Assembly: GCF_037914945.1 (NCBI RefSeq)
Contig: NZ_CP149787.1
Coordinates: forward strand, 2,232,001 to 2,296,000
DNA from: Haloterrigena sp. KLK7
Lineage (GTDB): Archaea > Halobacteriota > Halobacteria > Halobacteriales > Natrialbaceae
Reading direction: 5' to 3'
DNA length: 64,000 nt
Both the position numbers and the translations under genes were made by a program. Under the pieces are notes generated by a model that was given only the letters and a program-made list of their open reading frames with translations, had not been told where the DNA came from and searched no databases. Shown here in pieces: positions 33,724-40,504 of this stretch. Position 1 is the first letter of the stretch. Each line of letters begins with the position of its first letter.

Positions 33724-34665
33724 TCAGGGCTCCTCGTCTTCGACGGACTCGAGCGAGTCCGCCTCGACGGCGTCGCTGTACCGTTCTAACGTGGCTTCGT
33801 AGCCGGCCATCGCGAGGTCGTACGTCTCGCGCAGGTCGGCGATAGGCGTCTCGCTCGCGTCGATCCGCAGGTCGTTGTACGACGGTTCCCACTCGTGGCG
33901 TTCGGTCGTCTCGACGGCGACCGCCGCGCTCTGGACCGACAATCCCTCGCGCTTGTCGCCGCCCTCGATGTCGCCCGCCGCGAGAGCGTCGATCAGTCGC
34001 TTCGCGAACGGGTCGGTTTCCGCGTCCGCTCGCACCGCGTTCGGTCCCGTCGCGGGATCGGTCGTCTCGTGGACGGCGTTAGCCGCGTAGTTGGCCGCGG
34101 CCGCCTCGAGGACGTCCTCGCCGGTCAGCATGTTGCCGGCGACGGTGAACTCGTCGCGCTCGAGGTGGCCCGACTGCTCGACACACTCCGCGCCCGTGAA
34201 GGCGAACGATCCCTCGCGGTCGACGCCGTGGAGCTGGCGGTGTGGCGCCCCGTCGTCGGCGTTGAGCAGCGCCTCGAGGACGTCCTCGCCGGTCAGCATG
34301 TTGCCGGCGACGGTGAACTCGTCGCGCTCGAGGTGGCCCGACTGCTCGACACACTCCGCGCCCGTGAAGGCGAACGATCCCTCGCGGTCGACGCCGTGGA
34401 GCTGGCGGTGTGGCGCCCCGTCGTCGGCGTTGAGCAGCGCCTCGAGGGCGTCCTCGATCGCGAGCCCGTCCTCGACGTACGCGAGCCCGCGCTCGCCGAG
34501 TTCGACGTTGACCAGACTCTGGGTCGCGACGGCGCCGCGGTCGCTGACGAACGGACAGAGCGTACCGACGCCGGGGAGACGGGTGGTCACGGCGACGCCG
34601 AATCGGTGGTGGCTGTCGCCGTCCGGAGTCTCGTAGGTCTCGTGAGCGCAGATGCTGAAGGTCAC
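33724..34665 (-). CDS. DUF1028 family protein with a perfect internal duplication
   Basis: A DUF1028 (Ntn-hydrolase-like) protein; family members begin with TFSI-A-H, here VTFSICAHE after a GTG at 34665 (a TTG at 34692 is possible). FVSDRGAVATQSLVN follows. A block of 56 residues (ALLNADDGAPHRQLHGVD ... AGNMLTGEDVLE) occurs twice in tandem with identical DNA. Normal homologues have one copy, so this protein is longer than the family and its fold may be disturbed. Function of DUF1028 is unknown. Confidence 0.78.
   Translation of the reverse strand: MTFSICAHETYETPDGDSHHRFGVAVTTRLPGVGTLCPFVSDRGAVATQSLVNVELGERGLAYVEDGLAIEDALEALLNADDGAPHRQLHGVDREGSFAFTGAECVEQSGHLERDEFTVAGNMLTGEDVLEALLNADDGAPHRQLHGVDREGSFAFTGAECVEQSGHLERDEFTVAGNMLTGEDVLEAAAANYAANAVHETTDPATGPNAVRADAETDPFAKRLIDALAAGDIEGGDKREGLSVQSAAVAVETTERHEWEPSYNDLRIDASETPIADLRETYDLAMAGYEATLERYSDAVEADSLESVEDEEP
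34103..34438. repeat. Perfect 168-bp tandem duplication
   Basis: Bases 34103-34270 and 34271-34438 are identical by direct comparison. A third partial start of the unit (GCCTCGAGG) follows at 34439 and then diverges. The unit is 56 codons, so the reading frame is kept. Confidence 0.95.
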
Positions 34666-34692
34666 GCTTCGTGGATCACCGGTCGCGAACAA

Positions 34693-35381: not shown

Positions 35382-35900
35382 TCCGGTCGCCACCGAATTT
35401 TCTGTGACTCCGTCTCGTTCGAGGGAGGACGGACTCTCGCGCCGATTCGCCGTCTGGAGATCGTAGCCGTCCGACCATCGCTCGGTAGTGTCCATTGGTA
35501 CCGCGTATCGCGGTACCGACCTGTGATCCGGCGATGTTATCCGGGTTTTGTTGCCGACTCCGGTGACGAACCCGGCGCGTAGTGACCGTCCGTCTCGAGT
35601 CCCCTGTAATCGATCCCGTCGCTGCGGTCGAATAAAGGCCGGGCATACGATGGGTAACGGAGCTGTCACGAGTGGCGACGCGTCGCTGCCGTGGTTGCGG
35701 AGCCGCGGTACGGCTTACCCTGAGACGTAGTTGAAAGGGGATCTCGAGCCAATCCGTGGCCACAGCATGAGCACGCGACTACCGAACCCACCCGGTCCGG
35801 GACGGGGCCCGGACTCGAGGCGGCGCGATCGAAGACGTCGCCCGCCGGCTGCGTCGGACGGACGACCGAAGCGACGAGCGGACGCCGGAGGTGTGCGGCC
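35382..35900. other. Gene-free stretch with one strong palindrome
   Basis: No supported coding frame in about 520 bp. At 35497-35517 GGTACCGCG and CGCGGTACC flank TAT, a perfect 9-bp stem. The stretch ends at the GTG of the sulfite reductase fusion, about 385 bp downstream of the palindrome. Confidence 0.55.
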
Positions 35901-38333
35901 GTGAGCGACGCGCCGCGCGTCGTCTCGCCGTCGTGGCTCGAGGCCCACCGTGAGTCGGTGACGGTCGTCGACGTCCGCGAGCAGCGCGATTACGAGGAAC
36001 TGGGACGCGTTCCGGGCGCGGTCAACGTCCCAGCCGAGGCGTTCCGCGACCCGAGTAGCGTAGCCGAGGGGAAACTCCCCGGTGCGGAGGCCTTCGCCGA
36101 CCGCATGAGCGAGGCGGGGATCGAGTGCGGTGACGCCGTCGTCGCCGTCGACGACGAGCGCGGTGTCGACGCGGCCCGGTTCCTGCTGACCGCCGCCGTC
36201 TACGGCCACGAGGGGGATCTCTACCTGCTCGACGGCGGTCTCGAGGCGTGGCTCGAGGAGACCGAAGCCGACCTCGAGACGACCGACTCCGAATCGGAAT
36301 CGAAGGCGGGGTCGGAGCCGACGCCGCCGACGACGTACGAGGCCGTCAGACGGGACGACGCACCGATCGTCGACCGCGAGGGCGTCGAATCGGCCGTCGA
36401 GGGCGACGCCGTCGTCGTCGACACCCGGACGGCGGCCGAGTACGACCAGTCACACATCCCGGGTGCGGTGCAACTCGGCTGGGAGACCCTGCTCGAGGAC
36501 GACACCGGCCGACTGAAGCCCGAGGACGAACTCGAGGCGTTGCTCGCCGATCGGGGCATCGAGCCGGACGAACGGATCGTCCTCTACTGTAACACCGCGC
36601 GCAGGCTGAGCCACACCTACGTCGTCCTCCGCCATCTCGGCTACGAGGCCGTCGAGTTCTACGAGGGGAGTCTGACCGACTGGGTGCGCGCGGAGGCCCC
36701 CGAGTGGGACCCCGTCGACCTCAAGCGGCAGGTCCGCGCCTACGCCGACGCGGGCGGATTCGATGCGATGGTCGAGGAGCTCGGCGAGGACGTCCTCGGC
36801 CGGCTGAAGCTGATCGGCCTCTACCACCAGAAACAGCGGGGCTACTTCATGCTCCGCACGCGGGCGCCCGGCGGGATCCTCACCGCCGAACAGGCCCGCG
36901 TGATCGGCGAGGTCGCCGACGAGTTCGCCCGCGCGCCCGAGGCGTACGGCGGGCCGGATCAGAACCCCGTCTTCGGGGACGGCTATCTCGACGCGACCAC
37001 GCGACAGGACATCCAGATGCACTGGATTCGGATCGAAGACATCGACGAGATCTGGGACCGCTACGAGGCGGTCGGCCTCGAGACGATGCAGGCCTGTGGC
37101 AACTCGGTGCGCAACGTCGTCGGCTGTCCCGCCGCGGGGATCGATTCCGGCGAGACGATCGACGTCCGGCCGACCGTCGAGCGCGTCAGCGAGCGGTTCT
37201 TGGGGGACCACCACTACGCTAACCTCCCGCGGAAGTTCAAGGTCAGCGTCACCGGCTGTCACGAGGACTGCGCCCGATCGGGAATCCAGGATCTGGGGCT
37301 GACACCGGCCGTGAAAGACGGCAAGGACGGTTTCGCCGCCCGCGTCGGTGGCGGCCTTTCGGACGGGCCGCGCGTCGCCAGCGACATCGATCTCTTCGTC
37401 GAACCCGAGCAGGTCGACGACCTCGTGGCCGCGATGGCCGACCTGTTCATGGACCGAGGTAGCTACCTCGACACCGCCGTCAACCGCCTGCGCTTCCTCG
37501 TCGAGGAGCTCGGCCCCGAGCGATTCAGGGAGGAACTCGAGTCCTACGCCGACTTCGCGTTCGAGTCGCCCGACGAGGCGCTGACGACCGACTATCGGGG
37601 CGACCACGTCGGCGTCCACGAGCAGGACGACGGCCGCTCCTACGTGGGACTGAACGTCCCGACGGGTCGACTGGGCGGCGACGAGTTGGCGGAACTGGCG
37701 CGACTCGCCGACGACCTCGGCGACGGCGAACTCCGGCTGACGCCCAACCAGAACGTGCTCGTCCCCCACCTCGCGGACGACGCGCTCGAGGCGTTTCTCG
37801 ACCGGCCGGTCGTCGAGCGCTACAGCCCCGATCCCGGTCCCTTCACGCGCGGAATCGTCACCTGCACGGGACGGGAGTTCTGCAACTACGGGATCATCGA
37901 GACGAAGAACCGCGCGATCAGGTGGGCCCGCGAGCTCGACGACTGGGCCGAGGAGACCGGTATCGCGGACGACCACGACGCGATCCGCGTTCATATGTCC
38001 GGTTGTTCGGCCTCCTGCGCCCAGCCCCAACTCGGCGACTTCGGCCTCCGCGGCGAGGTGTATCGGGACGACTACGAGTCCGGCCGCGCGGCCGACCTCG
38101 GGCTGGGCGGCGACCTCGGGAGCGACGAGTTCATCGACTGGTTGGTCGGCAAGATCCCGATCGACGACGTTCCGGGCGTGATCCGGGAGACGATGCTCGC
38201 CTACGAGCGCGACCGCGAGGACGGCGAATCGTTCGCCGACTGGACCGACCGAAAGTCCGACGCGGAACTGCGCGAGCTCGTCGCGGGGCGTCCGACGACC
38301 GAGCCGCCCGCGATCGGCACGGAGGTGAGCTGA
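35901..38333 (+). CDS. Tandem rhodanese - siroheme sulfite/nitrite reductase fusion
   Basis: An 810-residue fusion. Residues about 8-125 are a first rhodanese-like domain (VTVVDVREQRDYEELGRVPGAVNVP ... YLLDGGLEAW) with no Cys at the active position. Residues about 165-275 are a second one with VVDTRTAAEYDQSHIPGA and the persulfide Cys230 in LYCNTARR. From about 300 it is a ferredoxin-type nitrite/sulfite reductase (LRTRAPGGILT, ACGNSVRNVVGCP, TGCHEDCA), with the siroheme-4Fe-4S ligands Cys655/Cys661 (C-x5-C) and Cys702/Cys706 (C-x3-C). It would reduce sulfite to sulfide, or nitrite to ammonia, using a sulfur-carrying module in the same chain. GTG start. It abuts the next gene with no gap. Confidence 0.88.
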   Translation: MSDAPRVVSPSWLEAHRESVTVVDVREQRDYEELGRVPGAVNVPAEAFRDPSSVAEGKLPGAEAFADRMSEAGIECGDAVVAVDDERGVDAARFLLTAAVYGHEGDLYLLDGGLEAWLEETEADLETTDSESESKAGSEPTPPTTYEAVRRDDAPIVDREGVESAVEGDAVVVDTRTAAEYDQSHIPGAVQLGWETLLEDDTGRLKPEDELEALLADRGIEPDERIVLYCNTARRLSHTYVVLRHLGYEAVEFYEGSLTDWVRAEAPEWDPVDLKRQVRAYADAGGFDAMVEELGEDVLGRLKLIGLYHQKQRGYFMLRTRAPGGILTAEQARVIGEVADEFARAPEAYGGPDQNPVFGDGYLDATTRQDIQMHWIRIEDIDEIWDRYEAVGLETMQACGNSVRNVVGCPAAGIDSGETIDVRPTVERVSERFLGDHHYANLPRKFKVSVTGCHEDCARSGIQDLGLTPAVKDGKDGFAARVGGGLSDGPRVASDIDLFVEPEQVDDLVAAMADLFMDRGSYLDTAVNRLRFLVEELGPERFREELESYADFAFESPDEALTTDYRGDHVGVHEQDDGRSYVGLNVPTGRLGGDELAELARLADDLGDGELRLTPNQNVLVPHLADDALEAFLDRPVVERYSPDPGPFTRGIVTCTGREFCNYGIIETKNRAIRWARELDDWAEETGIADDHDAIRVHMSGCSASCAQPQLGDFGLRGEVYRDDYESGRAADLGLGGDLGSDEFIDWLVGKIPIDDVPGVIRETMLAYERDREDGESFADWTDRKSDAELRELVAGRPTTEPPAIGTEVS

Positions 38334-39590
38334 ATGTCCGCGGACAACCAGCCGTCGGTGCCCGAGCCGAACTCCCGAGCCGAGCCGAAGGGCGTCGGTG
38401 GAGATCCGCGCGAACTGAACGACGACGTGACGGAGCCGCCGGGGAAGATCTGGTTCCGCGACTTAGACGAGGCGGTGATCGAGGCCGATCGCTGTATCCA
38501 GTGTGCCTCCTGTGTCGCGGCCTGTCCCTCCGACTCGATCGGGATCGACGAGGAGGAACAGCGACCGACGCTGGTCAAGATGTGCACCGGCTGTTCGCGC
38601 TGCTGGGACTTCTGTCCCCGCAGCGGCCTCCGCTACGAGCGCCACCTCGAGCTGACCGCCGAGGAGCGCGCCCTCGACGACCCCGAGACGTACGCCGCGC
38701 GAGCGAGCGGCGACGCCGCGGCGGCCGGGCAGGACGGCGGCGCCGTAACGGCCCTGCTGGCCGAACTGATCGAATCCGGCGAACTCGACGGCGCCGTCGT
38801 CGCCAGGGAGAGCGACGCGGACCCGCTGCGCGGCGAGCCCTTCCTCGCGACCTCCCGCGAGGACCTGCTCGAGGCCGGCGGCAGCATCTACAATCAGACG
38901 ATGGGACTCGGCCGAATCGACGACCTGCTGGCCGACGAGGGGCTCGATCCGGCCGAGACGGACCTCGCGCTCGTCGGCCCGCCCTGCGTGATTCAGGGTG
39001 CGACCGCGCTCGACCGGTACGACCACGAGCCGGCCGACCCGATCGCGCTGACGGTCGCGCTGATGTGTACGCGTAGCTTCGAGCACGGGCGGCTGGTCTC
39101 TCACCTCGAGCGCTTCGACGTCGACCCCGAACGGGTCGACAAACTCGATATCGCCGAGGGCGTGCTCCGCGCCTCCGACGACGACGGGGAGACGCTGCTC
39201 GAGGCCGACGTCGACGAGTTCGGCGCCGCGGGCCTGCGCGGCTGTGAGGAGTGTGCGGACTTCGTCGGCGCCGCGGCAGACATCAGCGCCGGCAACGTCG
39301 GAACGGAAGACCGCGAAACGACGGTCGTCGTCCGCACAGAGACCGGTCGAGCGGCCTGGACGGCGGCGGCCGACGGCCTCGAGGTGACCGAAATCGACCG
39401 GCCGGAGACGCTCGAGCGACTCGCCGACTGGAATCGGCGCCGCGCGGAGTCGACCCTCCCGCGGGAGTACGATCCCGAGGAATCGATCGGTATCACCTAC
39501 GAGGACCACCGCGAGGCCTACGACGGCACCGATCGGGAGCCACAGCCGCTGAACCCGGCTCGAGTCCACCAGTACGAGGAGTGGTGTTGA
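38334..39590 (+). CDS. FrhB/FdhB-like F420 oxidoreductase with two 4Fe-4S clusters
   Basis: A 418-residue protein. Cys54/57/60/64 (CIQCASCVAACP) and Cys84/87/90/94 (CTGCSRCWDFCP) are two ferredoxin-type clusters. From about 130 the chain follows the coenzyme F420 hydrogenase/dehydrogenase beta subunit (GQDGGAVTALLAELIESGELDGAVV; VGPPCVIQGATAL; ALMCTRSFEHG; GCEECADFVGAAADISAGNVG), which binds FAD and F420. Its ATG directly follows the TGA of the sulfite reductase fusion. Haloarchaea make F420 but no hydrogenase of this type, so it most likely feeds electrons from F420H2 to the reductase. Confidence 0.87.
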   Translation: MSADNQPSVPEPNSRAEPKGVGGDPRELNDDVTEPPGKIWFRDLDEAVIEADRCIQCASCVAACPSDSIGIDEEEQRPTLVKMCTGCSRCWDFCPRSGLRYERHLELTAEERALDDPETYAARASGDAAAAGQDGGAVTALLAELIESGELDGAVVARESDADPLRGEPFLATSREDLLEAGGSIYNQTMGLGRIDDLLADEGLDPAETDLALVGPPCVIQGATALDRYDHEPADPIALTVALMCTRSFEHGRLVSHLERFDVDPERVDKLDIAEGVLRASDDDGETLLEADVDEFGAAGLRGCEECADFVGAAADISAGNVGTEDRETTVVVRTETGRAAWTAAADGLEVTEIDRPETLERLADWNRRRAESTLPREYDPEESIGITYEDHREAYDGTDREPQPLNPARVHQYEEWC

Positions 39591-39850: not shown

Positions 39851-40504
39851 ATGACCGGGTTTCGAGCCACAGTCGTCGTCGAGGACCCCGGGGACTGCCC
39901 GATCGCGGACGTCTCGGCGACCGCCGACGAACCGATCACCTCCGTGACGCGGTCGCGCGCGACGACCGACGGGACGGTCGTCGAGGAGTTCGGTATCGCC
40001 GCCGGCGCGGAGACCGAGTCGGTCGACGACGGGACCGCGACCGAACTGACTCCCGTTCAGGCGAACGAACGCGAGGAAATCTATCGGTTCGAACGCGACG
40101 GCGACGCCGACTGCGCGTGCGAGATCGTCGAAGGGACCGGGACGCCGGTCTCCTCGGTCAGCGCACGGGACGGCGCGCTCCGATTAACGTTTCGCACCCT
40201 CGAGTTGACGGAGATCGCCGACATCGTCGACGACCTTCGGGATCGATTCGAGAGCGTCCTCGTCGAAGAGCTCACGCAGGACCACGACGACGAGACGACG
40301 GATCCGGTCCTCGTCGACCGCGACCTGCTCACGACGCGCCAGCGCGAGATCCTCGAGACGGCCCACGAGATGGGGTATTTCGACTATCCGAAGGGTTCGA
40401 ACGCGACGGACGTCGCCGAGGAACTGGGGATCGCTCGGTCGACGTTCACCGAACATCTGGCCGCCGCCCAGACGAAACTGCTCGACGCGCTGCTCGAAAA
40501 ATAA
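39851..40504 (+). CDS. HTH_10 (bacterio-opsin activator type) regulator
   Basis: A 217-residue regulator. The N-terminal about 150 residues contain DPGDCPIADVSA and CACEIVE and lack a known ligand motif. The C-terminus (LLTTRQREILETAHEMGYFDYPKGSNATDVAEELGIARSTFTEHLAAAQTKLLDALL) is a complete HTH_10 domain. It lies between the sulfite reductase operon and citrate synthase; which it controls, if either, is unknown. Confidence 0.87.
   Translation: MTGFRATVVVEDPGDCPIADVSATADEPITSVTRSRATTDGTVVEEFGIAAGAETESVDDGTATELTPVQANEREEIYRFERDGDADCACEIVEGTGTPVSSVSARDGALRLTFRTLELTEIADIVDDLRDRFESVLVEELTQDHDDETTDPVLVDRDLLTTRQREILETAHEMGYFDYPKGSNATDVAEELGIARSTFTEHLAAAQTKLLDALLEK

Follow-up and report, generated by a model that had tools for sequence, protein, structure and literature searches.

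The locus studied here raises the question of which reaction would be carried out by a chain that joins two rhodanese domains to a siroheme reductase, and whose neighbouring gene encodes an FrhB-type F420 oxidoreductase subunit. The pair occupies positions 35901-39590 on the + strand of the window, i.e., the whole analysed stretch of 64,000 nt from Haloterrigena sp. KLK7 (NZ_CP149787.1). Its genes and expression signals are the following:

35887..35893, + strand: Shine-Dalgarno-like GGAGGTG, 7 nt upstream of the GTG start (sequence inspection)
35901..38333, + strand: rhodanese-SiR fusion gene, aFsr-alpha-like, 810 aa (ORF list, Pfam, PDB sequence and fold matches, AF2)
38334..39590, + strand: FrhB-type F420 oxidoreductase subunit gene, aFsr-beta-like, 418 aa (ORF, Pfam, PDB, profile search, fold)
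39851..40504, + strand: DmsR_N-HTH_10 regulator, possible regulator of the pair (Pfam; neighbour clustering)

The ORF of the fusion starts with GTG and stops with TGA at 38331-38333, and the FrhB ORF opens with the very next base in the same frame. The genes thus adjoin with no base between them, as originally predicted, and are two ORFs parted by TGA, not one polypeptide. A scan of the locus for sigma-70 promoters and terminators, the model of which is not applicable to archaea, gave no match. According to neighbour clustering, the DmsR_N-HTH_10 family occurs near nine of the 26 rhodanese-bearing loci, mostly directly downstream. Within the fusion chain the following features were assigned:

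35913..36275, + strand: first rhodanese domain, approximately residues 5-125 (Pfam; alignment)
36402..36689, + strand: second rhodanese domain, residues 168-263 (best PF00581 stretch)
36588..36590, + strand: catalytic Cys230, loop CNTARR (YCNTARRLS) of the second rhodanese (alignment)
36756..38285, + strand: assimilatory NirA/SirA-type siroheme reductase region, approximately residues 286-795 (Pfam, PDB, fold)
37233..37241, + strand: K445-x-K447, presumed oxyanion site (alignment; K-x-N in NasA-linked paralogues)
37863..37883, + strand: siroheme-[4Fe-4S] ligands C655 and C661 (invariant in alignments)
38004..38018, + strand: siroheme-[4Fe-4S] ligands C702 and C706 (invariant in alignments)

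Pfam places two rhodanese stretches (PF00581) at the N-terminal end of the 810-aa chain, followed by repeated NIR_SIR (PF01077) and NIR_SIR_ferr domains with no ferredoxin domain within the reductase region. The original prediction of two rhodanese domains and a siroheme reductase in one chain is thereby borne out, as are its claims that the four cluster ligands are intact and that the catalytic cysteine is confined to the second rhodanese: the loop of the first lacks a cysteine, and C76, the sole cysteine of that domain, lies outside the loop. Cys230 and the CNTARR loop are invariant across a 15-row alignment; the rhodanese-bearing loci in the wider locus set were picked out by this loop itself. 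The AF2 model of the chain reached a pLDDT of 87.4 and a pTM of 0.78. The closest PDB sequence relatives of the reductase part are NirA/SirA enzymes. M. tuberculosis NirA (1zj8) aligns over its length (fold Z 45.7) and has the four siroheme-cluster cysteines in common. However, unlike NirA/SirA enzymes such as M. tuberculosis NirA and plant NiR, the window reductase is partnered by an FrhB-type subunit instead of free ferredoxin and carries the N-terminal rhodanese. K-x-K is present in every FrhB-linked row tabulated, whereas nitrate-reductase (NasA)-linked paralogues have K-x-N. The nitrite-type branch of haloarchaeal NirA, marked by K-x-N and a NasA neighbour, does therefore not include the window protein with its K445-x-K447. 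We take K-x-K to be the sulfite-type and K-x-N the nitrite-type site, in part from the titles of PDB matches; no paper on the N226K mutant of tobacco nitrite reductase turned up in a literature search.

The 418-aa partner comprises a 4Fe-4S dicluster, an FrhB_N and an FrhB_C domain (Pfam), with the following features:

38469..38624, + strand: ferredoxin domain with two CxxCxxCxxxCP motifs (Pfam; invariant C54, 57, 60, 64, 84, 87, 90 and 94)
38691..38909, + strand: FrhB_FdhB_N domain, residues 120-192 (Pfam)
38961..39398, + strand: FrhB_FdhB_C domain, residues 210-355, carrying C218, C245, C304 and C307 (Pfam)
39552..39587, + strand: conserved C-terminal tail NPARVHQYEEWC, C418 being the final residue (alignment, relatives)

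The two predicted 4Fe-4S clusters and the FrhB-type domain were thus found, with the refinement that the four ligands of a third, non-canonical cluster are also retained (P217-C218, C245, C304, C307), in the PC..C..CxxC pattern known from Fsr (PMC10229431). All three ligand sets are invariant in the alignment of FrhB subunits. PDB and profile searches returned F420 enzymes, Fsr among them, as the best solved relatives, and a fold comparison matched the subunit to FrhB and to Fsr, in its F420H2-oxidase half, with Z 28-32. VIA-align of both subunits gave no match to Fsr spanning the two among the matches listed, which is not evidence either way, and when SiR and FrhB were modelled with AF2 as a single read-through chain, the pTM was 0.60 and the ferredoxin part poor, which gives no support for docking of the two. 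FrhB subunits of the window clade have the C-terminal cysteine tail, whereas an N-terminal extension of approximately 150 residues, present in the other FrhB partners of haloarchaea, is missing from them. The tail as a partner specific to the rhodanese was rejected, as two hydrothermal-archaeon loci (L133, L165) have it without a rhodanese.

The pairing has a precedent in aFsr (aFsr-alpha and aFsr-beta), a putative F420H2-dependent assimilatory-type sulfite reductase of haloarchaea made up of an aSir-type reductase gene and an Fsr-N/FpoF-like F420H2 dehydrogenase gene (Susanti and Mukhopadhyay, 2012; PMC3448663); homologues from Rubrobacter xylanophilus and Thermobaculum are named in the legend of its tree. 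The window pair shares the aSir-type reductase, the FrhB protein with two N-terminal ferredoxin-type [4Fe-4S] motifs and the adjacency of both genes. It differs by its rhodanese, a word with 0 occurrences in that paper. Compared to group I Fsr of methanogens, the FrhB subunit resembles the F420H2-oxidase half with its corresponding ligand sets, including the third cluster, and the same electron flow from F420H2 to sulfite would be expected. Yet Fsr is one chain with a Dsr-like reductase half that has a single S/NiR repeat and an inserted ferredoxin domain, whereas the window reductase is a two-repeat NirA/SirA enzyme, encoded separately and with a rhodanese. The original prediction of a split F420-dependent Fsr hence holds for the F420 half, a close homologue, but not for the reductase, and the architecture had already been proposed as aFsr; an origin from a split Fsr is rejected, as the two reductases come from different subfamilies. 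The fusion was also noted in passing in 2024: a rhodanese-fused haloarchaeal NirA (cluster 195.2; 19 of 529 halobacterial NirA proteins), with a suggested role in sulfur metabolism, very probably represents the same proteins, and the passages on the fusion do not mention an FrhB partner, F420, a single origin or a mechanism (PMC11237513). With the aFsr core predicted in 2012, what is new is the rhodanese as an addition to aFsr, as read here, and the support from gene neighbours.

Among 80 loci on genome contigs, drawn from haloarchaea, actinobacteria, one Chloroflexi bin and hydrothermal archaea, SiR lies directly upstream of the FrhB gene in 79, the remaining locus ending at a contig edge. 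Whole genomes added another 61 loci, 59 of them with the same arrangement. These counts rule out chance adjacency. More distant FrhB relatives from the rest of the phylum have neither a reductase nor a rhodanese in their 1.5-kb flanks. Most SiR-FrhB loci lack the rhodanese; the survey of its spread that had been suggested along with the original prediction yielded 26 rhodanese-bearing loci (22 distinct sequences), all with the same gene order. The SiR tree, from which three rows were left out, and the FrhB tree recover the same groups, and, judged from the sequences, the rhodanese fusion arose once.

In actinobacteria the order CysH-SiR-FrhB-120aa-Sat-APS kinase-TauE (Sat, ATP sulfurylase) was observed almost wherever the contig extends far enough. 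Of the 10 loci that reach 3 kb above SiR-CysH, 9 have at least one of the F420-synthesis genes CofD, CofC and CofE upstream. CysH also adjoins the pair in hydrothermal-archaeon locus L133. Similarity to Rubrobacter genes revealed no sulfate-assimilation or F420-synthesis genes beside haloarchaeal loci. In one haloarchaeon (G010) a genome search found no NirA-type reductase besides the fusion, near which two siroheme-type biosynthesis genes and one PF01507 gene (a weaker match) are located. A literature search found no biochemical characterisation of any aFsr member. Comparison supports the predicted F420H2-driven sulfite reduction well, through the fold and ligands of FrhB, the cross-phylum pair, the actinobacterial operons with sulfate-activation and F420-synthesis genes and the K-x-K site, and the core of the pair is likely an F420-dependent sulfite reductase (aFsr). 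A hydride from F420H2 would be passed to FAD in the FrhB-type subunit, and electrons would then run via the non-canonical [4Fe-4S] cluster and the two ferredoxin clusters into the reductase, with which the subunit presumably forms a complex. At the siroheme-[4Fe-4S] centre of the reductase, sulfite, the presumptive main substrate, would be reduced to sulfide.

The rhodanese part resembles the two-domain thiosulfate sulfurtransferases CysA2, SseA and Thermus rhodanese in having two domains with the catalytic cysteine, here C230, in the loop of the C-terminal one; it differs from them by its fusion to a sulfite reductase and by the loop CNTARR instead of CRIGERS or CRKGVT. ATP sulfurylase is encoded in only 4 of 195 haloarchaeal genomes and is absent from the host genome; as it is nearly absent in haloarchaea, another source of sulfite is needed. 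Cys230 may accept the outer sulfur atom from thiosulfate and thereby free sulfite beside the reductase, which would supply this substrate in organisms without the usual sulfate activation; the Cys230 persulfide would be passed on to thiols or other acceptors. As sulfide, the product of the reductase, is already fully reduced, it is more plausible that the rhodanese provides thiosulfate-derived sulfite than that it accepts persulfide from the reductase. A route from thiosulfate via sulfite to sulfide by two separate enzymes has been proposed for haloarchaea (PMC3402447). The host genome also has a rhodanese-less aFsr; about 8 kb from it lie a classical TST and a separately encoded rhodanese that is 56% identical and has the same loop. 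Separate rhodaneses are found near rhodanese-less aFsr in 11 of the 20 family members examined, a synteny that may also stem from shared ancestry within one family. Thiosulfate-transporter-type genes (PF04143) are present in the host, but far from the locus. We consider the chances of the full scheme, an F420H2-dependent sulfite reductase with thiosulfate cleavage in cis by the rhodanese, to be evenly balanced. As a weaker possibility, the invariant C-terminal cysteine of the FrhB subunit might act in sulfur transfer in a manner loosely resembling that of the DsrC arm.

With the aFsr core kept, the rhodanese could instead move sulfane sulfur from polysulfide, mercaptopyruvate or persulfides, or bind and pass on product sulfur. 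Its closest models include 3-mercaptopyruvate sulfurtransferase, most loci manage without a rhodanese, and rhodanese specificity is hard to infer from sequence; the CNTARR loop gives no certain indication of the substrate. However, thiosulfate sulfurtransferases are likewise among the solved relatives, the near lack of ATP sulfurylase calls for a source of sulfite, and forming a rhodanese persulfide from sulfide needs an oxidant (established chemistry). We regard this alternative as rather unlikely.

Siroheme reductases often accept nitrite too, and the pair could be an F420H2-dependent nitrite reductase in nitrogen metabolism or nitrite/NO detoxification. In FsrII, a homologue of Fsr, nitrite is the only substrate reduced with F420H2 (PMC9295563), plant nitrite reductases are among the nearest folds, and a rhodanese-less homologue in Haloferax mediterranei, where the aFsr pair bears the locus tags E6P09_RS15580/15575, is annotated as ferredoxin-nitrite reductase. 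Moreover, the pair lies 270 bp ahead of the nosZ operon in Natronococcus occultus SP4, and weakly NnrS-like proteins are encoded near five other rhodanese loci. Against this stand the K-x-K site, a separate NasA-linked K-x-N reductase in the host, the sulfate-assimilation operons of actinobacteria and the rhodanese, which itself indicates sulfur; a nitrite reductase is accordingly improbable.

It is also highly doubtful that ferredoxin or another carrier, not F420H2, feeds the FrhB-type subunit. Ferredoxin is the electron source of most NirA/SirA enzymes, and the fold also matches the ferredoxin-dependent HCAR (Z 26.6), an FrhB-fold protein not using F420; this is countered by CofD, CofC and CofE beside the actinobacterial pair, by the profile matches to F420 enzymes in the PDB and by CofD in the host genome. 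Rhodaneses are frequent in sulfur-oxidising routes; nevertheless, oxidation of sulfide or persulfide to sulfite with reduction of F420 is extremely improbable given the potentials (HSO3-/HS- -116 mV, F420 -360 mV; PMC9295563) and the assimilatory bacterial operons.

Haloarchaea produce F420, the role of which in them has been called undetermined or enigmatic (PMC8498797, PMC8305020), and their sulfide formation is poorly known (PMC3402447). As a conserved F420-sulfite reductase pair sits with F420-synthesis and sulfate-assimilation genes in actinobacteria, the aFsr pair makes both questions testable. The fusion suggests how this module was re-plumbed upon a change of sulfite source. We tentatively propose, at somewhat less than even chances, that the complex is a bifunctional thiosulfate reductase of a kind not yet described biochemically: the rhodanese would cleave thiosulfate and the F420H2-dependent siroheme reductase would reduce the sulfite half on the spot, so that both sulfur atoms would enter assimilation in haloarchaea without sulfate activation. 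If true, this would give haloarchaeal F420 a concrete physiological role.

The two genes lie without a gap, the FrhB-type reading frame starting at the base directly 3′ of the TGA of the reductase frame:

35901-38333, rhodanese-SiR fusion ORF, 810 aa: a complete assimilatory siroheme reductase (SiR) preceded by two rhodanese stretches
38334-39590, FrhB-type ORF, 418 aa: ferredoxin dicluster domain, then FrhB_N and FrhB_C

These coordinates and the domain content bear out the two-gene layout of the original prediction, and the cysteines cited there all proved right when their positions were checked. As aFsr was named in 2012 as a putative enzyme on the basis of gene pairs in haloarchaea (PMC3448663), a count published in 2024 gave the rhodanese fusion in 19 of 529 halobacterial NirA proteins (PMC11237513), and no assay of any aFsr was found in the literature searched, the system in the window is described here as a rhodanese-fused variant of aFsr, a known but putative F420-dependent assimilatory sulfite reductase. 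The name aFsr recurs in 2022 in the legend of an alignment (PMC9295563), and the passages of PMC11237513 consulted do not mention an F420 partner of the rhodanese-fused NirA. Near the pair, a DUF1028 ORF (33724-34692, minus strand) contains an exact, in-frame tandem duplication of 168 nt or 56 codons (34102-34437), which is either recent or an assembly artefact; the protein has 322 aa versus approximately 254-272 aa in several neighbours' versions.

The best solved relatives of the reductase part are, by sequence and also by fold comparison (Z 45.7), plant nitrite reductase and M. tuberculosis NirA. The reductase part is thus NirA/SirA-like and, unlike methanogen Fsr, lacks the ferredoxin domain with two extra clusters that is inserted in the reductase of the latter; the proposed derivation as a split Fsr is therefore not upheld. 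A group of cysteines in the first pseudo-repeat (C399, C409, C453, C457) makes a second cluster in the reductase conceivable. Most NirA-type proteins of haloarchaea and actinobacteria keep three to four such cysteines, which plant nitrite reductase lacks; one reductase (L100) has lost them. The whole fusion chain was modeled by AF2 with a pLDDT of 87.4 and a pTM of 0.78.

A profile of the FrhB subunit matched F420 enzymes in the PDB: FrhB, FdhB, Fsr, an F420-reducing CODH component and a subunit of an F420-reducing formylmethanofuran dehydrogenase. Besides the two 4Fe-4S clusters of the original prediction, the subunit retains all four ligands (PC..C..CxxC; C218, C245, C304, C307) of the non-canonical cluster 1, a feature of Fsr structures, so three clusters and FAD are expected instead of only two clusters. 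As plant HCAR shares the FrhB fold (Z 26.6), the fold alone does not prove the use of F420, and ferredoxin as electron donor is a competing reading.

The profile search of named genomes yielded 80 FrhB loci from haloarchaea, Rubrobacter and other actinobacteria, one Chloroflexi bin and two hydrothermal-archaeon bins. A NirA-type reductase is located directly upstream on the same strand in 79 of them, the remaining locus ending at a contig edge, and the same order was found in 59 of 61 additional loci from whole haloarchaeal genomes. About one third of 195 genomes sampled from the order contain FrhB genes of the aFsr type; 15 contain the rhodanese-fused form. The window's genome has both, the rhodanese-less pair being located at C1:1273299-1276674. 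Elsewhere, a rhodanese-clade FrhB gene is represented by no more than a C-terminal remnant (L102, G184:C6:200170-200364; 75% identical), and one FrhB gene (L098; L098/L233, G179:C7) has no reductase nearby. In rhodanese-less haloarchaeal FrhB genes (e.g., L041:8490-9003), the ferredoxin domain is separated from the reductase by an acidic, possibly disordered N-terminal extension of ~150 residues, which has no Pfam match.

The strongest evidence for F420H2-driven, assimilatory sulfite reduction by this family comes from gene neighbours. Actinobacterial loci share one conserved run of CysH, SiR, FrhB, a ~120-aa protein, ATP sulfurylase, APS kinase and TauE (Pfam confirmation was made on locus L126). 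At least one of CofD, CofC and CofE, which serve F420 synthesis, is encoded upstream of this run in nine of the ten loci extending approximately 3 kb further upstream. In a hydrothermal archaeon (L133), CysH follows the pair immediately. No published statement linking the pair to these sulfate-assimilation and F420-synthesis genes was found in the literature searched. The ~120-aa protein (L126:7191-7550 and equivalents) is conserved where the operons reach that far and has no Pfam match. In one further genome (G010), the rhodanese fusion is the sole NirA-type reductase found, with two siroheme-type biosynthesis genes and one PF01507 gene nearby.

A competing reading is that the pair acts on nitrite, the main point in its favor being a nosZ-nosD nitrous oxide reductase operon 270 bp downstream of the fused pair on plasmid 2 of Natronococcus occultus SP4. 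All tabulated FrhB-linked reductases have Lys at position 447 of the substrate site, alongside the invariant R319, R404 and K445, whereas paralogues adjoining a NasA-type nitrate reductase have K-x-N instead of K-x-K, as do plant nitrite reductases in the alignment of PDB relatives. CysI binds sulfite with two Arg and two Lys. The sulfite site of DsrA has the same composition (R98, R170, K211, K213; PMC9295563).

As the SiR and FrhB trees contain matching groups and the rhodanese label requires one change, the fusion would most simply have a single origin within haloarchaea; support for the branch that joins every fused form is modest, with SH-aLRT values of 66 in the SiR tree and 92 in the FrhB tree. 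At its C-terminus (39552-39587 in the window), the FrhB subunit of each of the 26 rhodanese loci carries NPARVHQYEEWC or a closely similar tail with an invariant final Cys. As two hydrothermal-archaeon loci (L133, L165) carry the tail NPARVYQYAEVC without a rhodanese, the tail probably predates the fusion; a final Cys is lacking in all of the remaining 110 full-length relatives.

PDB matches of the rhodanese half, by sequence and by fold, are two-domain sulfurtransferases acting on thiosulfate or mercaptopyruvate; the rhodanese loop CNTARRLS is invariant in the aligned rows. ATP sulfurylase was found in only four of the 195 genomes (CysN/CysD-type enzymes being outside this count) and not in the window's genome, so sulfite usually cannot come from sulfate by this enzyme. 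For haloarchaea, a route with separate enzymes has been proposed, from thiosulfate to sulfite by a sulfurtransferase and on to sulfide by a sulfite reductase (PMC3402447). In the window's genome, a divergent stand-alone pair of two-domain rhodaneses (L270, L271; G000:C1:1264800-1266700) is located ~8 kb from the rhodanese-less aFsr: a CNTARR protein, 56% identical to the fused one, back to back with a classical thiosulfate sulfurtransferase (loop CRIGERS). This arrangement was seen at 11 of 20 other family members examined versus none of 20 loci outside the family, which fits a functional link but may reflect shared ancestry.

Most likely, F420H2 would reduce the FAD of the FrhB subunit, from which electrons would pass first through cluster 1, then through clusters 2 and 3, and on to siroheme-[4Fe-4S] and sulfite. 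Without the inserted ferredoxin domain, the reductase would need to dock directly to the FrhB subunit; no interface of high confidence emerged when AF2 folded a SiR-FrhB read-through construct (pTM 0.60), in which the ferredoxin part was badly modeled. In the fused form, the rhodanese would cleave thiosulfate and free sulfite beside the reductase; use of other sulfur donors is a competing reading. F420-driven sulfite reduction is kept as the best hypothesis, while the rhodanese, originally thought to receive or deliver persulfide, is best seen as supplying sulfite. The system is real, conserved and mechanistically interesting, and the fusion unites predicted sulfurtransferase and sulfite reductase activities in a single chain.
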